Shown piece after piece: positions 486 through 59,858 of a stretch of 64,000 nt of DNA. A program made the translations under genes and the position numbers. This DNA is from Halicephalobus mephisto. Its lineage: Eukaryota > Nematoda > Chromadorea > Rhabditida > Panagrolaimidae. A model generated the notes under the pieces. It did not search any database. It saw nothing but the letters and a program-made list of their open reading frames with translations, and had not been told where the DNA came from. Within the stretch, counting starts at the first letter, position 1, and each line of letters begins with the position of its first letter. The DNA lies in NCBI GenBank assembly GCA_009193035.1, contig SWDT01000121.1, forward strand, positions 1-64,000. The letters run 5' to 3'.

Positions 486-904
486 TAATTAATTTGCCAT
501 ATTTATAATGTCTTAATTTGTCAATGGTTTTAATTTTTAATAAACATTTTTCAAGTGGAATTGCTGAATTTTTTGTTGTTTATAATCATGAAAATTTAAA
601 ATTAATTATAGATCTATATTTTAAGGATTTATGTGTTTTAGAGTAAAATAGGTATAAAATAAGAAAAAGACGCGATCTTTGGAGATCGGGTGTATAGGGA
701 TGAGTGTCTTAGAGAGTATATAACTATTCTCATGTTGTGATGTAAAAAAGTCGAGTTCTTCCATACAACGAGTACACTAAAAACAGGGATTTCTTATAAA
801 TATATGTTTTCCAGTTGACAATATTAAGGTGTCAATTTCAGGTTTTCGAAATGAAGAACACAGGTATCACCATCAATATTGAACAACTTCTTTGTCCAAT
901 TACA

Positions 905-1004
905 GACTTTCCATTACGAAAGCAATCCAAAATTTAACTGTGTTCACCACAAGACTTTACCAGAGCGAAATTAAATGTTTACCTCAAATTCGGGTAATTA
1001 AACC
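905..1004 (-). ncRNA. SL1-type RNA: Spliced-leader (SL1-type) RNA gene, copy 1
   Basis: SL RNA donates its 5' leader to pre-mRNAs by trans-splicing and works as an Sm-class snRNP. Read on the minus strand, the leader runs 1004 to 983 and is 22 nt. It matches nematode SL1 except at leader positions 14 (A to G) and 16 (G to A). A GT donor (GTAAAC) follows directly, as in SL1 RNA. An Sm site (TAAATTTTGG) lies near 931-940. A short 3' hairpin (CTTTC loop GAAAG) closes the RNA near 905-923. Total length is about 100 nt, the usual SL RNA size. It is divergently paired with the copy at 1293. All expected parts are present, so it is probably functional. Confidence 0.88.
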
Positions 1005-1024
1005 GAACACAGTGTTCTGATTTT

Positions 1025-1045
1025 CTGTCTTTTGGAAGCTAAGTG
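1025..1045 (-). promoter_or_regulatory. Proximal promoter block of SL RNA copy 1 (PSE-like)
   Basis: On the minus strand this reads CACTTAGCTTCCAAAAGACA and starts 41 bases before the first leader base. The divergent partner has a near-identical block at exactly the same distance. snRNA-class genes use a proximal sequence element in this position; calling it a PSE is inference from conservation and spacing. Confidence 0.6.
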
Positions 1046-1251
1046 ATTTCAGCTGAATGAACCCTATTTTACCCCATCTCTTCACTAAGAAATAGGTAAG
1101 AAAGACGAGAGTCAGAGCGACAAACACAATGCATAATTTCCCAGGTTTGTTTTTAATCGAGAAATGTCTTTTTCTAACAATTCAGTTATTTTCCCCTTAT
1201 ATCTCGTCGTTCACACAATCCATTGTCCACCTGTATTCATCTACCCCAATT

Positions 1252-1272
1252 CACTCAGCTTTCAGAAAGTTC
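1252..1272 (+). promoter_or_regulatory. Proximal promoter block of SL RNA copy 2 (PSE-like)
   Basis: CACTCAGCTTTCAGAAAGTT begins 41 bases upstream of the leader at 1293 and matches the block serving the divergent gene. The 206 bases between the two blocks (1046-1251) would be a shared bidirectional promoter region; no TATA box is evident. Confidence 0.6.
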
Positions 1273-1292
1273 AAAATTAGGAAGTTGTATTT

Positions 1293-1391
1293 GGTTTAAT
1301 TACCCAGGTTTGAGGTAAAGATTGAAGTCCGCTTTTGAGAGATCTTGTGACGGGAATGTCTAAATTTTGGAATACTCTCGAAATGGAGAGT
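1293..1391 (+). ncRNA. SL1-type RNA: Spliced-leader (SL1-type) RNA gene, copy 2
   Basis: The 22-nt leader at 1293-1314 equals nematode SL1 except for G instead of A at position 15. It is followed by GTAAAGATTGAAG, which resembles the start of the Caenorhabditis SL1 RNA intron half. The Sm site TAAATTTTGG is at 1361-1370. The 3' stem-loop is ACTCTC, loop GAAATG, GAGAGT at 1374-1391. Length is about 99 nt. This is the closest copy to canonical SL1 in the window and the best candidate for an active gene. Bases 1392-2319 downstream hold no recognisable gene. Confidence 0.92.
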
Positions 1392-2319
1392 TTAGTTTCA
1401 TAAGTATGATTTATACTTTATTTATTTAATAAGTGAATATTACATTCAATTCAAACAATTCTTATTATCTGTTGTCATTTTGATTTAAACGTCTTCCTGA
1501 GTCACAATGGAAGGAAAATTTAGAGAAAATAGAGTCGAAAACAGATTAATTGCTCCTATTCTTGTTTTTTAAAATATTTTTCAGCTTTTTAAATTACTGA
1601 AGGGATTATCCGAACCATTAAAAGTAGAATGGAGTGAACTTTTCATAGCTATTTCAATTATAAATTCCATAGGATCTTGTATAATCTCTCTACATTATAT
1701 TTCATGAGTATAGAGGAATTTAGTTATATAAATTAATATGAGAATGGGAATTTTGAAAAAGACTTTGATTTAGTCCTCAGATATTTATTCTGATTGAAGA
1801 GCTGAAACCTGATCTCAAATTCACTGCGCTTAAAAACAGTTCATCTATGGATACTAGGTTTTATCAATTTCCATTAGAATTTTTATTAATTGTCCGACCC
1901 ACCCAATCATTTCAATGAGATTTGTGACATTCTCTTTGAGGATAATAGTTCTCAACTAAAAATGTCTGTTCTGATTGAAACAAATAACTACTTCGGATCC
2001 CAGATACTTCTTGATTTTCAGATGATTGTGATATATTCTATCTGATTGATCAACTGATTAATTGGTTTAAATGATTAAAATCAATCAGTGGAAGCCAGAT
2101 CCACTGAAGAACAAACTCTTATTTTCACATCATGATGAAATAGTTGCTTTCTCTCAATCATTTATTTATTAAAGACATAATAAATGAATCAATTTCTCAG
2201 AAAACACCGGTGTTGCAAATAATATGATGAAGTTATTAATTTCAAGAGTTATTCGTCAATTAAATCTACTAAACCTTTCGATAAAATGGGAATCATAAAA
2301 GAACTCAATTTCCAATTAA

Positions 2320-2419
2320 AAGCTCCTGATCAGAAGAGCAGTCCAAAATTTAAACTCACCACCACAAGATTACTCAAGACCGGGATCAAATGTCTACCTC
2401 AAATTTAGGTAATAAAACC
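2320..2419 (-). ncRNA. SL1-type RNA: Spliced-leader RNA gene, copy 3 (variant, promoter displaced)
   Basis: On the minus strand the leader is 2419-2398, 22 nt, differing from SL1 at positions 6 (A to T), 13 (C to T) and 16 (G to A). A GT donor (GTAGAC), an Sm site (TAAATTTTGG near 2343-2352) and a 3' hairpin (GCTCTT, loop, AGGAGC) are all kept. The conserved upstream block (2481-2501) is 82 rather than 41 bases away, as if 41 bases were inserted. The RNA could fold and assemble, but transcription may be lost. Confidence 0.8.
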
Positions 2420-2480
2420 GAAGAAAACGTTCTAATCGGGAACTTTATTCAATAACTATATCTCTGGTTAGGTGAATGCT

Positions 2481-2501
2481 GATATTTTTGGAAGCAGAGT
2501 G
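2481..2501 (-). promoter_or_regulatory. Displaced promoter block of SL RNA copy 3
   Basis: CACTCTGCTTCCAAAAATAT on the minus strand is the same block seen at 1025-1045 and 1252-1272, but starts 82 bases upstream of the leader. Sequence nearer the leader (AGAACGTTTTCTT) still aligns with copy 1, which indicates an insertion of about 41 bases between the two. Confidence 0.45.
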
Positions 2502-2723
2502 CAAAATAACGATGATGGTAGAGAGCGAAAGAACTGGGAATAGAAGAGATGACAATAACTGGCTCGTTTATTTCCTGAGAGAACACTCATCACTTCCTCT
2601 TCCGATCGGTTATTGTGTCTATCTTCCTATTATCTATATACCGTTATCTTGCATTTCAAAGCCTTCAATACTTGTCTGACAAGCTATTCATAAAGTAAAG
2701 TCTGAAATCAGAATGAGTTCTTC

Positions 2724-2830
2724 GGTTTAATTATCCAAGAGTGAGAACAATAAGTCAATGATTTATTTCAGATCCTAATCCTGCAACGAATTCACTACTT
2801 TTAAGTCGAACACAGTCGATCAGTTATTTC
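2724..2830 (+). pseudogene. Degenerate spliced-leader RNA copy 4
   Basis: A leader-like 22-mer at 2724-2745 differs from SL1 at positions 11, 17 and 18 and still ends in GAG. The donor is destroyed: AACAAT follows where GT should be. No clear Sm site is seen (ACTACTTTTAAG is the nearest) and no clean terminal hairpin. It sits divergently to copy 3 just as copy 2 sits to copy 1, so the two pairs look like a duplicated unit of about 1.4 kb. Without a GT it cannot serve as a trans-splicing donor. Confidence 0.65.
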
Positions 2831-4438
2831 AGTGAATTGTATTGTCTAAGAAATCGACTATTAGTATGGACAAAATTGGATAGATTCGACGAATAAAGGA
2901 TCCATGTTTCGTATTACCATCGAATACAACAGTGAAACATCCTGTCTTTTTCCCATGAATGAAGAAAACTTTCTTCACTAATAACTAGTAGTTATCAATT
3001 GATAACTAAAATAACGACGATATAAGTGAAATCTGCAGAACCGATGTATTACTTAACTTTTTACTTTTATTGTTTTCGTTTTATAAAGTAATTTCGACCA
3101 GGAATCTGTGATGTGTATTATCAAAGTCAGAGGTCAGGGTTCGAAATCGAAATCTGGACTTTTAGTATTAAAGTGCATCTATGAATTTTTCTATCTGAAA
3201 AATCTATTTCATCTAAATTGATAGTAGAAACTCAACTAGATTTTTTAATTCCAACATAACCCATAAGTTGCGTTTTAACATGGAAAATTCAGATTTTAAC
3301 TTCCAACTCCAACCGTCGATTTTGATAATACGAAACACTATATCATATCAATTTCTACTGATTCTAACGATATTTTGGCTTTTTAACGTTTCTTTCAGAA
3401 TGCATAGCTAACATGGATAACTCCTTCGGTTCCTTAAGAACACTTTAACTACACCTAGTTCCTCAACATCGTTCCAATTTCAAATTACAGACCTTTTCAA
3501 TCCGAGATGAGAAATAATGCCCTTGATTCAAACTCGGATCAGGTATCAGATCAGAATGAATATCCAGATGATATCAAGAGTCGTACTTTTGTACTTCTCC
3601 AGTGCATCGAATACAGATCCACAACTGAACTCATGGAATACACTATAAATGTTTCTTCCACCACAGTAGATGAGCTCAAGAATGAAGAAAATGATATCCG
3701 TCTCCTGATCATGATAAATCAATGTTTTCTCCTGATTGTAATTTAGAAGAGACTACTGAACATTATCATGACTGAAATCCATTGCTGAAACAAGATGAAA
3801 TATCCCTCAATAACATGAGAAAAATGTCGATGAAGAACTAAATTAATTCTCAGTAATGGAATGTCATTATTGGATCAACTTTCAGGAAGGAATTTTCATA
3901 CAGAAACAGAAATGAGCAATAATCGAACTATTCTTCATCCCCACCGACGAACAACGGAATGAACTTCCATCAGATGCATTTCTTGTGCTAAATCTATAAT
4001 CGACAATTCAGAAATCATTATTAATCAATAGAGTACTTTTTTGAATTAATTTATTGATACAGTTTTATTCCTAAATTATTATAGGTTTTACAATAAAATG
4101 CTGTATATGGTTTTCAAAAATATACTCAGAAAAATGTTCTCCATAGTAGAAATTACATTAAGAAATATTTCCTAACAACTAATTCTGTTGATCATGAATG
4201 TCTCTTCTTGACCCCTCAGAGACGGACGACAATCCAAAAATTCAACTTTGATTTTTGTCTCTATATCGTGTTGTTTTCAAAAATATCATTGTTACTATGT
4301 ATATTTAAATGGAATAGTTTTGTGTCATACAGAAAAAATAAATAATCTTAATGCCTACCATTTCTATAATTTTTACAACGAACAATAAAGTATGTTTTAT
4401 TCTTCTGTCAAAGAAAACCGATCCAGTCAGAAAAATTT
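2831..4438. other. Gap without a supported gene
   Basis: No convincing exon is seen. A 79-codon open frame at 3507-3746 on the plus strand begins just after a possible acceptor (AATTACAG) but has no recognisable domain and no downstream partner exon, so it is not called. Confidence 0.4.
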
Positions 4439-4563
4439 GCTATCGCCAGGGGTCAAACCAGGGTGAAAGCACGCCATCCCGTTCGATCTGGCCAGTGAAA
4501 CGCCCTAGGGCTCGATTAGTACTTGGATCGGAGACGTCCTGGGAATCTCCAGTGCTCCTAGCT
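4439..4563 (+). rRNA. 5S rRNA: 5S ribosomal RNA gene
   Basis: 5S rRNA is a pol III transcript of the large ribosomal subunit. The central and 3' parts are strongly conserved: CACGCCATCCCG, CGATCTGGCC, TTAGTACTTGGATCGGAGACG and CCTGGGAAT in order. GCTA at the 5' end pairs with TAGC at the 3' end, giving about 120-125 nt. A short T-run (CCTTTTTG, 4565-4572) follows as a pol III terminator. The segment after CGATCTGG, usually AAGTTAAGC, reads CCAGTGAAACG, and the 5' strand is also diverged. It may therefore be a variant or decaying copy. Only one copy is seen here. Confidence 0.85.
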
Positions 4564-4565
4564 TC

Positions 4566-4571
4566 CTTTTT
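4566..4571 (+). terminator. Pol III T-run terminator of 5S gene
   Basis: Five consecutive T residues directly follow the 3' end of the 5S gene, the usual pol III stop signal. Confidence 0.55.
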
Positions 4572-5059
4572 GAACAAATTCAGTAAATTGGAATTATTAG
4601 AAAACTGATCAGAAAGGGATGATAATTACCTCTGAGGGAAAATAGGAAATCGCCAATTTCACAATTTTTGAATTTCCTTTTGCCCTTCAAAAAAGAAATT
4701 GAATATCAAAATTTTCGCTTTCTAAATCTTAACCCGATATATAATCCTTTTCTATTGTTCAACCTATATGATTTGTAATCCAATGATTGATTTCAATAGT
4801 GACAGTATTAAAAACTACTAGAATTGGTTTAAATTACACGTAAGTTTATGAGGAAATAAATTTCATATATGAAGAATCATCGAAAGCCTCTTCATAATCT
4901 CATAACTATGAAATTAGAAAGTTTAATAATCTGTAAAAGTAAAAATAAAATTATATATAAAATTTCAGTTCCAATAAAATAGAACTTTGAATGTCTGTTG
5001 AAGGACTATGTTATTAGAAAAATGAAGATTAGGAACAAGAAAAATACTACAAATATTTA

Positions 5060-5195
5060 CCTAACCAAAAGTATAGACCAACAATATATGTGCACAGCAG
5101 ACAGCCAAAAGTGTCACTCATGCCCTACAGTATTCCAGGGTCCCTGATATTCAAGCTGTCTCTTCAGGTCCTCTCTTTCTATTATAATTTCTGTC
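5060..5195 (+). repeat. Dispersed repeat, copy A (TATTCCAG...CTGATATTCAAGCTGTC)
   Basis: The block CTCATGCCCTACAGTATTCC then CCTGATATTCAAGCTGTCTC recurs at 46290-46380 and 46530-46610. It is AT-rich without coding potential; likely a short transposon remnant. The rest of 4572-6858 shows no gene. Confidence 0.55.
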
Positions 5196-6858
5196 CCAAT
5201 ATCTTTCTCCGAATGATGTGAAGTCTATTGTCAAAGATAAATTCAGCAATGAAATACGGATGTCATTGAGGAAGTGAAACAGATTTGACTAGATTTGGAG
5301 TGATGAAATTTCAAATTCTAAAAAGCTTGAAGTGTTAACTAAGAACTGTACATTCTTATTTTCGAAATTGAGAAAAATGAAGTTTCGATGTAATTGAATA
5401 ACTTCTATTAGAAGTAATTGATTCTTTGTTACTCTAATTCTTCTGAATTCAAAAATCAAAGAAATCTCTCGTGATCTCGAGAAATTACAGAATATTTTGA
5501 AGATGAAATTATTTCAATTGTTTTCTTCTTTTAAACATGTAATGGATTTTATTCTCTAGGAGGAAATCACTGATTACACTTTGCAATATATATTTTCAGT
5601 GATTGATTACAAGAAAATTGAAAAACTCACTTTCAGACAATATTAAAAACGCGTTGAAAAGTGAAGAAGTTTAAAGACATGAAATTTAAAAAAAGGATCT
5701 TTATTCACTTTAGGAAATTACAGAAAGTTTACAGAATTCTACGTGTTATTTCAATAAACAGATAGATGAAATTGGTTCAACAGAAATTTCTAGAAATTGC
5801 TGAAAAGAAACAGTTTATGTAAAAAGTTTGATTTCCCATAGTTAATGTTTTGTAATAACATTTCACAAATGAATTTTTATTGTACATATTGCTTAAATAG
5901 GTGTGATAATTTGGATCAAAGTCATGTAAGATATAAAATATTGTTCAGTTTTAGATATTACTTGTTATTTAGTATATTACTGAAACTTTTTAACAAGACT
6001 ATAATCGAAATCACAGTATTCTATTAATAACAGGTTGTTTTTTTGTAGATAATAACAAATTGTGGAAGATGAGATATTTAATTATTTCGGAACTTTACAA
6101 ATGAATTAGTTGATTAATTTCAACAAGATCATTGGATAGGTTCTGACCATAGAATCTGGTAGACTTCAGATATTATAAATGAATGGTAGAGAATTCAATA
6201 CTGGTTTTGCAAGTTCCCTTAATTAGATATGTCTGTACTTATTTTCGCACATATTGTACAAATTTACAGAATACGAAAACTTCTGCTCATTTATCTCAGA
6301 TTTTACTGTCATATTTGGATATTTCTACGAACAAAACATTTGAATTAGGGCCAAATCTCATTCGATGTTATTTGTATTTTGTCAACATAAAAAAACTATT
6401 TGCTTGTTGGTTAGTTCTTTCTTCAAGATAATTTTAAATAACTACATAAAATAGAAGATATAAAGCAGTAGATTAGATCCATAATATGCAAATCCAAGTT
6501 TGTCATTCTCTTGTGATTCCTTCTGTTTCTACTGTTCTTATTCTCATCTGTGTTAATGATTAAGATTCCTATTAAAATTATCTTCTGACTTTCGTCTGCT
6601 ACTACAGAACGGGAACATGAGTTTTAAGTCAGTTTATGGTTTTATTTTTCTGTATTGGTTGAAAATTGACCTTTGGAGAGTTTTCTGTCATGGAAGGGAG
6701 TGTCTTAAATCATGATCATTGAAAGATGGCTAAAGTTCATTTTAAGTTGTCTTTCTGTGATAAGGTATTGGTTAGTTTTGTAAAGTTGGGTGAATTCATT
6801 TATTATTTTTATTGATTGTTCTATGATTATAAAATATTAAGTCATTATTAGTAATAAA

Positions 6859-23699: not shown

Positions 23700-24180
23700 A
23701 ATTTGTAACATGTGTTAAATTTTTATTTTTTAATATATTATAGTCGAAATAAATGGTTCGGGAATTTTGAATAAAAATGGAAAAAATAAGTTTAATAATT
23801 AATTTAAAAATAAACTTTTTTTTACAGTAATTGAAAAAATTTTTAAATTATTTTTTAAAAATAAATTTTTTATTTTTTATAATTTTAAAAATTTAAAAAT
23901 AAACTTTTATTTTTTTACAGTAATTTAAAAAATTTTTAAATTACTTTGTAAAAATTAATTTTTAAATTACTATAAAAAAATTAAAAAAGTTTATTTTTTA
24001 ATTAACTATTAAATTTAAAAATTTTTTTTACAGTAATTTAAAAAATAAATTTGACAATTGATTACGAAATTAAATTTTATAAAAATAATCCAAAAAAATT
24101 ATTTCGTAAAAATTTATTTTTGATTTTTATAATTTTCAAAAAAAAAATTTATCATTTAGTTTGTGATTTTTTTGTCTTTT
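23700..24180. other. AT-rich intergenic spacer
   Basis: Runs of A and T with the recurring word TTTACAGTAATTTAAAAAA. No gene seen. Confidence 0.5.
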
Positions 24181-24189
24181 GAGAGAAAA

Positions 24190-24365
24190 ATGGTCACGAT
24201 TGAGTGTTCTTGTTAGATAAGTGTGACTCAATTTTGCCCTGCGGGCTTTTGTCCGTACAAGGTTAAACCGGATTCCGCGACAAACAGAAAAGAAAATTCC
24301 AATGTTCTCCTGGGATTCTGAATCGAGAGAAAACTTGACCGGTAGACCGTGTACCTATAGGGTTA
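24190..24365. other. GC-richer patch of unknown nature
   Basis: A 175-base stretch (CCCTGCGGGC, CCGGATTCCGCG, GACCGGTAGACCG) stands out from the surrounding A/T-only sequence. Neither strand gives a good exon that would splice in frame to the gene at 24966, and no known ncRNA was recognised. It may be a 5' untranslated exon or promoter. Confidence 0.3.
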
Positions 24366-24379
24366 TTTCTTGTTTGAGA

Positions 24380-24830
24380 ATTAATTCATATAAAATTTTT
24401 AAAAAACTTTAATTATTTTAGAAAAAAATAAAATTTTTAAAAAATATGGATTATTTTAGAAAAATACAAAATTTTTAAAAATTTGAATTATTCTAGAAAA
24501 AATATAAAATTTCAAAAACTTTAATTATTTTAAAAGAAAATATAAAATTTAAAAAACTTTAATTATTCTAGAAAAAAATAAAATTTTTAAAAAATATGGA
24601 TTATTTTAGAAAAATATAAAATTTTTAAAAAACTTTAATTATTTTAGAAAAAAATAAAATTTTTAAAAATATGGATTATTTTAGAAAAAATATAAAATTT
24701 AAAAAACTTTAATTATTCTAGAAAAATATAAAATTTGAATTATTCTAGAAAAAATATAAAATTTAAAAAATCTAAAATTAGAAAAAAATTTAAATTTAAA
24801 TATTTTTGAAAAAATATAAATTTAATTATT
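24380..24830. repeat. AT-only tandem repeat
   Basis: About ten units of 38-45 bases built from AAAAAACTTTAATTATTTTAG and AAAAATATAAAATTT. Confidence 0.85.
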
Positions 24831-24965
24831 TCTTAAAATTATATTATTTTTGGAATTTTTTAAAATTTTGTTTTTTAAAATTTTAATTATTTTAAATTTT
24901 TTTTTATAAATTTTAATTATTTTAAATTTTTTAAATTTTCAATTTTAATTATTTTAAATTTTAGA

Positions 24966-26192
24966 ATGATTCCAGAATTCCCGATTCCCCCAGGCGTTTT
25001 GACTGATCCGGTCGAAAAAAGAATCTACAGTAATTACTGTATTCCACGGGAAATGACCAGGGCTCTAGAATCGTCTTCCAAAGAGTACGGTATGAAATTT
25101 GAATTTTTATAAAAATTACGTAATTTAAAAAAATTATTTTCGGAAAATTGTCTCGAATACGGTAATTGAAAAAAACTACACAACATTGTAAAAGATTCTA
25201 GAAATTTCCAGCATCACGTAAACTTTAAATTTTTCACTTTTTGGTCCTGACTGGAAAGTTTAGAATTTTTTTCGAAACAATTTTTTGGAATTTTATAAAA
25301 AAATTTTTATAATAAATATAATTTTCAATTTTTTTATCAATATATAAACATTAAATTTTCCATTTTTTGGTCCTGACTGGAAAGTTTTAAAAATCCTTTC
25401 GAAACAATTTTTTAGAATTTTATAAAAAATACAATTTTCAATTTTTCAATTAATATAAAATATAAAATTTTCCACTTTTTGGTCCTGACTGGAAAGTTTA
25501 GAATTTTTTTCGAAACAATTTTTTGGAATTTTATAGAAAAAATTTTTTATAATAAATATAATTTTCGATTTTTTTTATTAATATATAAACATTAAATTTT
25601 CCATTTTTTGGTCCTGATTGGAAAGTTTTAAAAATCCTTTCGAAACAATTTTTTGGAATTTTATAGAAAAAATTTTTATAATAAATATAATTTTGAATTT
25701 TTTTATTAATATATAAATATTAAATTTTCCATTTTTTGGTCCTGATTGGAAAGTTTAGTATTTTTTTTTTCGAAACAATTTTTTGGAATTATAAAAAAAT
25801 TTTTATAATAAATATAATTTTAAATTTTTCAATTAATATAATATAAAATTTTTCACTTTTTGGTCCTGACTGGAAAGTTTAGAATTTTATAAAAAAATTG
25901 TTATAAAAAATATAATTTTGAATTTTTTTTATTAATATATAAACATTAAATTTTCCATTTTTTGGTCCTGATTGGAAAGTTTAGAATTTCTTTTTTCGAG
26001 GGAATTTTCAATTTTTTGTAAAATTTTGTTTTTAATAATATGATTTCAGACAACTCCAAATTGGCTTCTCACTTGACGACGGAACTTCCAGAGATGATGA
26101 CGTGCTTGTTTGTCCTCCATATGGCTAATTATTCTACATCATTTTTTTTTCGAAATCATATTTTTTCTCCAAGATCATTGATTATTTATTGA
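24966..26192 (+). CDS. Small two-exon gene of unknown function, 88 aa
   Basis: Exon 1 (24966-25089) and exon 2 (26050-26192) join in frame. Exon 1 is much GC-richer than its surroundings, has an acceptor (TTTTAG) one base before the ATG and a good donor (CG|GTATGA). It encodes MIPEFPIPPGVLTDPVEKR and ends in SSSKEY. Exon 2 follows GATTTCAG and encodes DNSKLASHLTTELPEMM. The last residues run into AT-rich sequence and the stop overlaps an AATAAA, so the true 3' end may differ. There is no signal peptide or recognised domain. The intron holds seven tandem repeats. Exon contrast and splice sites support a real gene; the function is unknown. Confidence 0.55.
25130..26030. repeat. Tandem array in the intron of the small gene
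   Basis: Seven units of about 110-130 bases, each with TTTTTGGTCCTGAYTGGAAA and TCGAAACAATTTTTTGGAAT. The unit is a relative of the widespread GTCTCGACACGAA repeat family, in which 'ggtcctgac' also occurs. Confidence 0.88.
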
Positions 26193-42804: not shown

Positions 42805-45072
42805 TTATGGAACAAAACCTCCAGATCTGATTGATCTGAATTTGTCAGCTTGTCTTCTGCAAGTAGTGTCTCTGAAGGAACACTTGACTCCGAATTCTTT
42901 GGGTGGAAATTGGATTCCTTTTATGCCTTGAGATGACATGATATATCCGGGGTCTTTGATCATCCAAATTTCGTCAATTGCTTTACCTTGTTCGACAGAA
43001 ATTTGCTGGATGTTGACATGAGTGTGATTATATACAGTAATTAGAGAATATCCGAAATCGTCGGATCTGAAGGCGGATGCAGGATTGGGAGCTCCGAATG
43101 ATGCCTTAGGGGTGTGACATCCGGCAGATCCGGATATGATATATGATGGAGCAGGGGCGTTATGATAAGGATTGACGGAATTGTTGTAAGCAGTTCTGTT
43201 ATTTACAGGAAGAAATCTTTCATAACTGTGTTCATGACCCCAGAATCCCAAATCCATATTGTATTTGCTGAAAATAGGTTCTAATCCAGGCATTTCCTCG
43301 TAACCTATTCTGACGAGACTGTTTTCGAAAGCTCGACATTCGTAACTGTTGTCGTTGGAGCAGTAAAATGGTCGATGTTGGAAACTTACTATCCATGGAA
43401 CGTTTTTTCGATTGTTGTTAGCTTTTTGAAGATCGTTTTGAAGCCATGTGTACTGATTCAGCACTGGTTGATGACCGTACTCGTAGAAGTATCCGTAGTA
43501 TTCTGTGCTTACTGTAACGAAATGGACAGGTCCAACATCGAAACTGTAAAATTGGTTATCGTAACCAGGCATTTTGAATCGATTTTGATAATGTGAGAAA
43601 TTTTTTCCATCATCTTCGTGATTTCCGGCAACGACCATATAAGGTACCCTGGAGGCTAGGCCCTCTAGTTCTTGCATGTAAAGATCTCCTCGTTCTCCGT
43701 TGTCAGTGTGGAGATCGTAAGCAATGTCCCCCACATGAACCACCATGTCGAAATCCCCTCTCTGTGCGGCGTTGATCAAGAATGGCAAGGAGGTTCCGTT
43801 CAGGTACCCCAAGTCTCCGAAGACACAGAATCTGAATTGGAAATTGTTTCCTGAAGGGAATGTTTTGAATTCGAATTGTTGACTCCACGTTGTAATCGAT
43901 CCGACTTTGTAATCTGTAATTTTGAGGATTAACAAAAATGAAAATTTTCATGGAATTGTCTCAACGTGATTTTTCACTTTTTAAAAACCTAAAAACCGAA
44001 ATTTTGGAAGATTTTAGTTTAATAAAAAAGTGAAAATTTTTACGAAATCGTCTCGACGTTGATTTTTGACTTTTTAGAAACTTCTAGAATTCCCAATTTC
44101 AGATGGTTTCAATGTTTCCACAAAGTTTCCGAATATTTCAGAATCTTCCATTAGAATCTGAAGTTGTCTAGAACCTCGTGGAAGTTTGGTGAATTTATAA
44201 AATTGAAACAAACAGTAAAGCGTAGCCGGAAGGAGGTTGGTCAGGGTTACGGTATGCATGTATTTGTGGACTCCATTGTACTCAAAGTCTACTGTAGTTC
44301 CGTCTTGCATCAGATTCAGGGATTGAGGACCGTACCAGACACGAGGAGTCCCGGCTGAAAAAAATTGATACAATTTTTAGGATTTTAAAATTTTCAATTT
44401 TGCTTTTCCGGAAATTTTACATTTTAGAATTAACAAATTGTTGAATCTGACATTCCATCCTTAGTAGGAAGCGTAACCAACAGGGAATACCTGATTTCGA
44501 ACGGATTACCTTAGCATCGATAAACATGTCCTTGGTCCTGAGTAGATTTCCTTAGTATTGAAAGGGAATGCTTGATCTTGAACGGATTTCTTTAGTATTG
44601 ACAAGGAGCGCTTGATCTCGAACGGATTCCCTTAATATTGAAAAGGAATATTTGATCTCGAAAGGATTTCCTTAGTGTTGAAAGAGAATGCTTGATCTCG
44701 AACGGATTTCCTTAGCACCGACAAGAAAACATATAGTTCCTCTTGACGGAAATTATTATATTTGTTTGTATCGACTTTGACACAGTATTTTGCATTGTGC
44801 CTTAGGCATCTGTTAGATAAATGTTTTCTACAATATCCACTTCGTCATCGGTACACGGACCATTTGGACTGGCAGATTCAACACAAATATTTGTTAATTT
44901 TGAAAATTCGATTTTACATGAAAACCAAAAAACCCGATTTACCTGGTTCCTGTGTGACCCAGTTGATAACCATGGTCGACACATCCTTGCCTAAGGCAAT
45001 GTGGACTTGTTCAGGTCCAGTAGCACTCAAAACTGTCGGTAAAAAAAGAACTAAAAAAAATACGGTCTTCAT
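42805..45072 (-). CDS. Secreted purple acid phosphatase-like metallophosphoesterase (ACP7 type)
   Basis: Exons 45072-44943, 44354-44214 and 43913-42805 join in frame to 459 aa. A signal peptide (MKTVFFLVLFLPTVLSA) is followed by a fibronectin-III-like purple acid phosphatase N-domain (VSTMVINWVTQEPG, PRVWYGP). The dimetal centre is complete: GDLGY (D124), VGDIAYD, AGNHED, SFQHRPFY and GHEHSYERF. This set binds Fe and Zn/Fe/Mn and hydrolyses phosphomonoesters, probably outside the cell or in lysosomes. The order and length match animal ACP7/PAPL proteins. TTTCAG is 16 bases upstream of the ATG. It converges with ABHD12: the two stops are about 200 bases apart. Confidence 0.94.
44480..44735. 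repeat. 60-bp tandem repeat in phosphatase intron 1
   Basis: About five units of CTTGATCTCGAACGGATTTC then CTTAGTATTGAAAAGGAATG. Confidence 0.9.
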
Positions 45073-56310: not shown

Positions 56311-56995
56311 ATCAGAAAAAAGTTGTTGAGAAATAGTTCTAATACGAATTCCTAGAAGTTTCTAGAACTCTGATTCTCAGCCGTTCATTCATTAATATTA
56401 CTACAGTAGAAAATTAAATTAGATGTTGCGAAATAACTTTGAGAAAATACTTTTGCAAATCTCTAAAATCCTAGCTTTTGATCTTATCCAAAAATCTTTT
56501 ATTGGATTTTCAAGGATCAAGAATTTTTGTCAGGTTTTTGAAGATTTCAAAATTTTGTATCAGCTTACAGAAGATTCTAGAAACTTCTACGACATCCTGA
56601 AGTACTACATTCACTCCTACAGAACTCTAGAAACTTGTGAAATCCTTGAAAAACTAGTTTTATACGATTCTTAAAGATTTCAATTTTCTATTAGATTTTG
56701 AATTCATCACAAGTGTAAAATGATCAGTGAATTTTTCACAAGATCCAAAATTACTTTCGAAAATTTAATTTTATTCGGTAAGTTTCCACAAAATTCCAAT
56801 ATTGAAAGTTAAATCATCCACCATTTTCCTTTTCATTTGCATAAATACACAAATCACTGTCAATGAATTCTTTTTTGGGTTTACGTTTATCTGATCAAAC
56901 AAATTTCACACCGGAAACCGACCTTCTATTAACCTCTGGTTTTTTATTCTAATATAGAATAAATAATTGGTGAATTTTTAATGTTTTCAAAACGG

Positions 56996-57003
56996 TATAT
57001 AAG
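56996..57003 (+). promoter_or_regulatory. TATA box of ShK gene 1
   Basis: TATATAAG lies 56 bases before the ATG inside CAAAACGGTATATAAGCGCA, a segment identical in the second gene at the same distance. No splice acceptor separates it from the start. Confidence 0.8.
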
Positions 57004-57051
57004 CGCAGGATTTTGGGAAAAGGTATACTAATTGGAAATTGTCTTCTGAAG

Positions 57052-57663
57052 ATGATCGCTAAGCTTATTGTTGTTTTGGCTCTTGCTGGATACGCCTATG
57101 GACAGACTTGTCTTGCCATCACTGGTGGCTGTATTTTGGGAGAATGCCCTTCTGGAAACACATGTATCCAGAACATCTGCTGTGTCACTGACGCATCTAT
57201 GAACTGCAACAACACCCAGAGTGAACAATTCTGTGAAGCTAACGCTGCCAAGTGTACGGATGCTACTCTTGGAACACAGATGAAACAAGTCTGCCCTCGT
57301 ACTTGCAAAGCCTGTACAACAGTCTCGACCACTGCTGCTCCTGGTACTGTTACTACGGTTGCTCCGTCTTCAACGACTTGTGCCGATAAGGTCAATCCAA
57401 CTACTGGAGTCTCTGATTGTCCCCAAAATGCCAATCTCTGCACCAATCCCACCTACAAAACTCTTATGCAAGAACAGTGCCCTAAGACCTGTGGATACTG
57501 CACTTCTTCATCTTCTGGAACTCCATCTTCAACTACCTGCGTCGATAAAGTCAACCCAGCCACCGGAGTTTCCGATTGTCCTCAGGATTATTATCTCTGC
57601 ACTAACCCCACTTACAAAACCCTCATGCAACAACAATGCCCCAAGACCTGTGGATACTGTTAA
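57052..57663 (+). CDS. Secreted protein with three ShK domains, copy 1
   Basis: Intronless, 203 aa. A signal peptide (MIAKLIVVLALAGYAYG) is followed by a small Cys module (CLAITGGC, CPSGNTC, CCV) and three ShKT-type six-Cys domains joined by Thr/Ser-rich linkers (TTVSTTAAPGTVTTVAPSS, TSSSSGTPSSTT) that are likely O-glycosylated. Domains 2 and 3 end in CPKTCGYC and are near copies of each other. ShK domains are common in nematode secreted and cuticle-associated proteins and the fold does not by itself imply toxicity. The first in-frame Met with a good signal peptide is at 57052; an upstream frame extension lacks an ATG. AATAAA at 57716. Likely a single abundant transcript from a TATA promoter. 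Confidence 0.9.
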   Translation: MIAKLIVVLALAGYAYGQTCLAITGGCILGECPSGNTCIQNICCVTDASMNCNNTQSEQFCEANAAKCTDATLGTQMKQVCPRTCKACTTVSTTAAPGTVTTVAPSSTTCADKVNPTTGVSDCPQNANLCTNPTYKTLMQEQCPKTCGYCTSSSSGTPSSTTCVDKVNPATGVSDCPQDYYLCTNPTYKTLMQQQCPKTCGYC

Positions 57664-58990: not shown

Positions 58991-59184
58991 CTAAAAATAA
59001 AATCACTCGTCTTTTTCCTTCTCATTTACATAAACACAGAAAGCTCTGTTAGTAAATCTTTTTTTGGATCTACGCTTACCTGATCAAACAGACTTTGTCC
59101 CGGAAACCTAATCTTGCGGTATTCTTTATTTTTTATTCTAATATAGAACAAATAATTGATGAATTTTTAATGTTTTCAAAACGG

Positions 59185-59192
59185 TATATAAG
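59185..59192 (+). promoter_or_regulatory. TATA box of ShK gene 2
   Basis: TATATAAG, 56 bases before the ATG, in a promoter segment almost identical to that of gene 1. Confidence 0.8.
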
Positions 59193-59240
59193 CGCAGGAT
59201 TTTGGGAAAAGGTATATCAATTGGAAATTGTCTTCTGAAG

Positions 59241-59858
59241 ATGATCGCTAAGCTTATTGTTGTTTTGGCTCTTGCTGGATACGCCTATGGACAGACTTGT
59301 CTTGCCATCACTGGTGGCTGTATTATGGGAGGATGCCCTTCTGGAAACACATGTATCCAGAACATCTGCTGTGTCACTGACGCATCTATGAACTGCAACA
59401 ACACCCAGAGTGAACAATTCTGTGAAGCTAACGCTGCCAAGTGTACGGATGCTACTCTTGGAACACAATTACAAAAAGTCTGCCCTCGTACTTGCAAAGC
59501 CTGTACAACATCTACAACTACGACTACTGCTGCTCCTGGTACTGTTACTACGGTTGCTCCGTCTTCAACAACTTGTGCCGATAAGGTCAATCCAACTACT
59601 GGAGTCTCTGATTGTCCCCAAAATGCCAATCTCTGCACCAACCCCGCCTACAAAACCCTCATGGAAGAACAGTGCCCTAAGACCTGTGGATACTGCACTT
59701 CTTCATCTTCTGGAACTCCATCTTCAACTACCTGCGTCGATAAAGTCAACCCAGCCACCGGAGTTTCCGATTGTTCTCAAGATTATTATCTCTGTACCAA
59801 CCCCGCTTACAAAACCCTCATGCAACAACAATGCCCCAAGACCTGTGGATACTGTTAA
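59241..59858 (+). CDS. Secreted protein with three ShK domains, copy 2
   Basis: Intronless, 205 aa, tandem paralogue of the gene at 57052. Signal peptide and Cys framework are the same. Differences are few: IMGG for ILGE in the first module, LQKV for MKQV in ShK1, a longer Thr run in the first linker (TSTTTTTAAPG), and Ala for Thr at two CTNPxYKT sites. Most differences lie in the linker and exposed helix positions while all cysteines are kept. AATAAA at 59911. The duplicated block runs from about 56820 to 57900 and again from about 58995 to 60090, so promoter and 3' flank were copied too. Confidence 0.9.
   Translation: MIAKLIVVLALAGYAYGQTCLAITGGCIMGGCPSGNTCIQNICCVTDASMNCNNTQSEQFCEANAAKCTDATLGTQLQKVCPRTCKACTTSTTTTTAAPGTVTTVAPSSTTCADKVNPTTGVSDCPQNANLCTNPAYKTLMEEQCPKTCGYCTSSSSGTPSSTTCVDKVNPATGVSDCSQDYYLCTNPAYKTLMQQQCPKTCGYC

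Follow-up and report, generated by a model that had tools for sequence, protein, structure and literature searches.

The window analysed here comprises bases 1–64,000 of contig C57 in a genome of 59.9 Mb and 331 contigs. Close to its start lie four 22-nt sequences resembling the nematode spliced leader SL1, arranged as two head-to-head pairs, A/B and C/D (Table 1). Four SL1-like 22-mers in the window compare with none in 100 shuffles. Both their places and their differences from SL1 (position 15; positions 14 and 16; positions 6, 13 and 16; positions 11, 17 and 18) agree with those given in an earlier sequence-only reading. That reading had assigned a complete set of SL gene features to all four copies. 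Three of them (1004−, 1293+ and 2419−) do have it: a GT donor after the leader, the Sm site AAATTTTGGA about 45 nt past the donor and then a hairpin. The fourth, 2724+, has neither donor nor Sm site. Judged by these parts, A, B and C are real SL RNA genes of the nematode SL1 type. All leaders of the unit are SL1-like and none is SL2-like. The B leader ends in CAGG in the window and in CAGC at the ten other sites listed, indicating a change private to the window.

Table 1. Features of the SL RNA and 5S rRNA region in the window
Feature	Position	Strand	Details
SL RNA gene A	905..1004	-	leader 983-1004 GGTTTAATTACCCGAATTTGAG; donor GT 981-982; Sm site 926-935; 3' hairpin 906-923
SL RNA gene B	1293..1394	+	leader 1293-1314 GGTTTAATTACCCAGGTTTGAG; donor GT 1315-1316; Sm site 1362-1371; 3' hairpin 1374-1391
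SL RNA gene C	2319..2419	-	leader 2398-2419 GGTTTTATTACCTAAATTTGAG; donor GT 2396-2397; Sm site 2342-2351; 3' hairpin 2322-2339
Relic D of SL RNA gene	2724..2830	+	leader-like start GGTTTAATTATCCAAGAGTGAG (2724-2745); no donor, no Sm site
A/B shared spacer	1005..1292	.	candidate promoter elements 1046-1059 - (A, ~-55) and 1234-1247 + (B, ~-59)
C/D shared spacer	2420..2723	.	starts 305 bp apart; candidate promoter element of C 2465-2478 -
5S rRNA gene	4445..4563	+	RF00001, 98.3 bits

The nematode origin proposed earlier was borne out by a purple acid phosphatase frame at 42805–43947 (−), whose best match, at 82% identity, is a protein of Halicephalobus sp. NKZ332. The same frame is 85% identical to an ENA-sourced protein, and 62% and 66% identical to the two best Panagrolaimus proteins. 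By this one protein tested, the host is placed in or near Halicephalobus. Elsewhere in the window, two nearly identical cysteine-rich frames lie 2.2 kb apart (56974–57663 + and 59163–59858 +) and probably represent a recent tandem duplication. The G+C minimum among 2-kb steps, 0.18, was observed at 24001–26000.

Covariance-model scores

Twenty-one SL genes of the host genome, A, B and C among them, served to train a covariance model, R1. Over the 64 kb it found these three genes alone, with scores of 110.4, 108.5 and 102.8 bits in descending order and the next best match at 17.8 bits; the three scores are high partly by construction. With the Rfam SL1 model RF00198, which had been proposed as a check, 1293+ scored 33.8, 2419− 27.5 and 1004− 23.4 bits, below the cut-off of 75, and there was no match at 2724+ at E values up to 10. 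Canonical SL1 genes of the host, of which seven at five loci were scored, reached just 40.5–47.5 bits. The cut-off therefore does not discriminate here and the check is not decisive; RF00198 looks too narrow for the host lineage. At the gathering score, Rfam yields the 5S gene only from the window.

A repeated unit linked to 5S rRNA

Ten other B-gene loci align to window positions 850–2850 with a mean pairwise identity of about 93%, the SL-part copies differing by about 7% on average. Gene order in the aligned loci is A− B+ C− D+ or the reverse, and one locus stops before D. The adjoining stretch 3000–5200 recurs at 83–92% identity at no fewer than 20 other loci, a lower bound given that 40 of 754 candidates were scored. 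At 20 other loci the match runs from query bases 3000–3009 through the 5S gene, and 16 of these are adjoined by copies of A, B, C or D (C102 by D alone); the remaining four (C36, C37, C198 and C214) have no SL or relic copies in the SL lists. The 5S gene, earlier taken as a lone copy, is thus part of the unit, which weakens the contrast that had been drawn with Caenorhabditis, where SL1 genes are 5S-linked. Canonical SL1 occupies none of the four slots in the units seen.

We conclude, with a probability of about 0.78, that positions 905–4563 represent one copy of a unit made up of a 5S gene, three SL RNA genes of variant SL1 type (A, B and C) and the relic D.

The scatter of the units may be an effect of assembly, in which a single tandem or subtelomeric array, or a small number of them, was broken into pieces; this would change the layout and not the identity of the genes. 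We give this slightly less than even odds. Of the 18 units assessed, 16 are no more than 7.5 kb from the end of their contig, including eight of the ten on contigs longer than 50 kb, and the window itself starts at base 1 of its contig; the units may accordingly belong to arrays fragmented in assembly. Against this, one unit lies 60 kb inside C329 and another 8.7 kb inside C256, and two full units on one contig appear neither among the strict-pattern genes described below nor among the 3000–5200 matches (40 of 754 candidates scored for the latter), assembly breaks limiting what contigs can show.

Genome-wide SL gene set and head-to-head pairs

Allowing up to three mismatches, SL1 matches 517 places across the genome, against none for the backward-read control pattern. 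A strict gene pattern (GGTTNNATTANCNNNNTTTGAGGT, 35–60 bases, AATTTTGG) returned 96 SL RNA genes on 47 contigs, again with zero matches in the backward-read control. They divide evenly into 48 canonical SL1 genes and 48 genes with 16 other leaders, giving 17 leader sequences. The commonest variants are GGTTTAATTACCCGAATTTGAG (A, 11 genes), GGTTTAATTACCCAGCTTTGAG (B, eight) and GGTTTTATTACCCGAATTTGAG (C, eight), the remainder occurring one to four times each. The total of 96 is a lower bound, because other leaders, such as the 21-nt ones on C326, escape the strict pattern.

Three further SL RNA genes were observed on C326 (L076:3549–4528), scoring 82.7–99.7 bits with R1; two 21-nt leaders, GGTTTAATTACCCAATTTGAG and GGTTTAATTACCCAGTTTGAG, occur there, and two of the three genes are paired divergently at a distance of about 289 bp. 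Another divergent pair, on C16 (L041:1474–1989), has the leaders GGTTTTATTACCCAATTTTGAG and TGTTTAAACACCCAAGTTCAAG, the latter strongly deviant yet followed by GT and an Sm-like site.

Divergent pairing was confirmed, yet it is common genome-wide and not peculiar to this spot: 36 of the 96 genes form 18 head-to-head pairs with starts 288–324 bp apart. On the loci fetched, 40 of 49 genes had an SL start on the opposite strand 288–324 bp upstream, counting relics, allowing up to six mismatches and using a non-random sample rich in A/B/C units. The controls of this test, placed at random positions, were in part real SL genes, and only high values serve as background. Seven of the nine genes lacking a partner are canonical SL1 genes; the other two are C copies, on C42 and on C126, the latter contig having a small inversion in its D slot. 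Across A/B loci the starts of A and B are 288–291 bp apart. This near-constant spacing suggests that the paired genes may share bidirectional promoters. A 14-mer shared at −59 by six of ten representatives gave a weak signal, scoring 97 against a maximum of 91 in 30 rotations. The literature matches listed contained no description of a head-to-head layout for nematode SL genes.

No 5S gene was detected at the Rfam cut-off near canonical SL1 in 24.5 kb covering three loci and nine SL genes.

The fourth copy is a gene relic

From 2724–2745 (+) the sequence continues into AACAATAAG, with no GT at the end of the leader and no Sm site; an Sm site was likewise absent from D in related copies. The D slot in C164, C329 and C102 retains the leader GGTTTAATTACCCGAGTTTGAG, with GT in two of the three, and scores 35.7–42.5 bits with R1, again without an Sm site. 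The leader kept in these three slots argues that D was once an SL gene and has since died, and by its sequence D is an SL gene relic in all copies seen. Over 11 copies, 7 of the 22 columns of the D leader are polymorphic, which indicates no constraint. On contig C126 (L068), about 26 bases at the start of the D relic run in the opposite orientation to those of other copies.

Constraint and folding of the variant genes

In 11 aligned copies, the leaders, donors and Sm sites of A, B and C together show 11 polymorphic columns out of 102, against 345 out of 1488 in the spacers (p = 0.0015; columns treated as independent and relatedness among copies ignored). This lower variation favours function. 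A stronger figure, 5 of 78 columns (p = 1e-4), was obtained for the A and B leaders and donors with the three Sm sites; that subset was picked after C had been seen to vary, and the figure for all three genes is preferred. By gene, the polymorphic leader columns number 1 of 22 in A, 2 of 22 in B and 6 of 22 in C, the C leader being as variable as background. Tests on single features were mostly non-significant, with the lowest p, 0.024, for the A leader, and constraint on the bodies of A, B and C was non-significant.

For SL RNA of the nematode SL1 type, a three-stem fold of the whole molecule is expected. Three hairpins are likewise mentioned in a paper on Heterodera glycines (PMC6362198), in the passages available. 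Among 21 sequences, three of the six pairs of the 3' hairpin have changed on both sides with pairing kept, and none of the other 15 pairs, which make up further stems of the predicted consensus fold, has a change on both sides. Single folds differ among A, B and C.

The units could instead be mostly decaying SL RNA pseudogenes that ride on duplicated 5S segments, only the canonical SL1 elsewhere being used. D is dead in every copy seen and the C leader is unconstrained, as this would have it; units differ from one another by 7% to 8–17%, and single A and B copies have damaged donors or leader ends (on C326, GC replaces GT in the A copy and the last bases of the B leader are AAG; on C329, the B leader ends in GAA). 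Set against such decay are the leader, donor and Sm columns, which vary half as much as the spacers, the A leader, identical in 10 of 11 aligned copies, the compensatory changes in the 3' hairpin, and the occurrence of variants of the same type on mRNAs of Aphelenchus avenae, as given in the available text of PMC2825203. On balance we regard general decay as unlikely and favour functional A, B and C genes.

For such genes, RNA polymerase II would start at the first G of the leader on either side of the spacer, A/B and C/D forming head-to-head pairs with starts about 290–305 bp apart. The resulting RNA of about 100 nt would assemble Sm proteins on AAATTTTGGA, and GU past the 22-nt leader would provide the 5' splice site for trans-splicing, giving some mRNAs a variant leader in place of canonical SL1. 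Transcription, snRNP assembly and the presence of the leaders on mRNAs are what we infer from the genes themselves.

Variant leaders outside SL genes were searched for as a record of use, and none was found. Of 34 matches carrying G at position 14, the only one outside SL genes and A/D slots is C24:266718, which has no GT after the leader, an Sm-like match at +55 and 26.6 bits, and is perhaps another relic. The B-type matches (14 rows, 11 sites) are all SL genes, their pattern also demanding ATC within 35 bases. Since the matches of both types are nearly all SL genes or slots, they leave no record of use. Use of the variant leaders on mRNAs appears likely.

SL1 sequences inside LTR-like elements

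The genome contains at least 101 exact SL1 22-mers; among the matches listed, 48 fit the gene pattern and 49 others are followed by AATAAA 2–18 bases on. SL1 was observed in LTR-like elements of at least three families (L010, L012, L013, L016, L018–L020, L022, L024, L027 and L031; L009, L011, L015, L021 and L030; L023 and L033, where the third family lies). These elements are termed LTR-like by their ends and target duplications only. One family has ends from TG to CA and a length of 148–177 bp, with SL1 ending 37–50 bp before the element end, and perfect 5-bp target duplications accompany 5 of its 11 copies. In L010–L031, where SL1 stands at locus positions 1501–1522 (match strand), the bases flanking it vary in length between copies; these aligned copies had been chosen for an exact SL1. 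At five loci, LTR-like SL1 copies scored 19.8–29.3 bits at the leader, against 102.8–110.4 bits for A, B and C.

A leader-free pattern for the TG..CA family returned 59 rows (some sites twice), all but one with an intact or decayed SL1, and one row in the control; that for a second LTR-like family returned 11 rows, every one with SL1, and none in the control. SL1 was intact in many of the TG..CA copies retrieved without requiring the leader, as if it were renewed in each element cycle. The position of SL1 just before AATAAA is what would be expected if the R region began with SL1, and suggests that the R region of the element RNA may do so. Either the RNA would be trans-spliced in each cycle, or the SL1 sequence would itself be the start site.

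The Ascaris element Tas may carry the SL sequence in its LTR; the texts consulted give Tas by name and reference only. In the Brugia malayi genome, according to the available text of PMC7181701, SL1 sequences occur in the neighbourhood of PAO elements and in some cases flank an element on the same strand; the inference drawn there is that expressed elements acquired leaders and carried them along on integration. Here, a search for the Pao peptidase family gave no match in the genome, but none in the controls either. At L071, two SL1-bearing repeats enclose a 7.7-kb interval, which was rejected as a candidate, having no clean LTR pair and no frame longer than 147 aa. No coding family linked to the LTR-like elements was found in the peptidase search or among the L071 frames.

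With so many SL1 22-mers of this genome lying in LTR-like elements and not in SL genes, the four 22-mers of the window might be thought to be chance or retroposed leader sequences. For A, B and C this is refuted by donor, Sm site and hairpin, which recur at fixed spacing in three copies, and by their R1 scores of 102.8–110.4 bits. It could apply to the fourth copy alone, for which a gene relic is the better reading, and as an account of all four it is extremely improbable.

Comparison with known systems

The genes resemble nematode SL1 genes (RF00198; Caenorhabditis elegans) in their 22-nt leader starting with GG, GT donor, Sm site and 3' hairpin. In C. elegans, SL1 genes sit in the 5S tandem repeat (PMC1657053, as far as its available text goes). 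A 5S gene shares the repeated unit with SL genes here too, but the units seen carry variant leaders only, in head-to-head pairs. Unlike the homogeneous tandem array of C. elegans, they are 83–92% alike and none was seen in tandem, within the limits set by assembly breaks; and no 5S gene reaches the Rfam cut-off in the 24.5 kb around the three canonical SL1 loci. Variant SL1 genes associated with 5S are mentioned for Brugia malayi as unpublished data in PMC1657053; the likeness extends to the 5S linkage, the mention giving no details or divergent pairs.

Families of numerous SL1-like leaders are known from nematodes of the Tylenchina. The accessible passages report 19 SL1-like leaders in Strongyloides ratti (PMC1657053), 12 leaders on mRNAs of A. 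avenae, including GGTTTTATTACCCAAGTTTGAG (SL1b) and GGTTTAAATACCCGAATTTGAG (PMC2825203), and at least 21 leaders in H. glycines (PMC6362198). The host resembles H. glycines in having many leaders, and S. ratti and A. avenae also in that most are SL1-like, with changes in the same places. In A. avenae, SL1b (GGTTTTATTACCCAAGTTTGAG) and variant 4, ending in CCCGAATTTGAG, show the change types of C and A, and A6T, as well as A14G with G16A, also occur at mRNA 5' ends (PMC2825203, Table 3). The leaders of these three species were seen on mRNAs, whereas those of the host are known from genes alone.

The suggestion that the leader set may be new stands in part. The four full 22-mers of the window and the other common variants were not found in the open full-text literature (supplements and most subscription journals lie outside it), and the four differ from the A. 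avenae list in the text available; very similar leaders nevertheless occur on A. avenae mRNAs (PMC2825203). In the literature search, Halicephalobus and spliced leaders came together in one paper, in unrelated passages. The leader set and its layout are new in detail and of a known kind, with no new mechanism.

It is conceivable, although we consider it doubtful, that the genome holds two separate classes of leader locus: head-to-head canonical SL1 genes without 5S, as at the three loci examined, and 5S-linked units with variants only. On this view the variants would derive from SL1 and form a dedicated set serving particular mRNAs, for example those downstream in operons, as with SL1-like leaders in S. 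ratti, and the 5S linkage would have persisted in the variants while SL1 lost it.

The analysis provides a catalogue of SL genes across the genome of a nematode near Halicephalobus (17 leaders in the 96 genes that fit the strict pattern), and the exact 22-mers can be screened in any RNA-seq of the species. The possible split between canonical and variant loci makes it testable whether SL1 variants are a functional class or noise.
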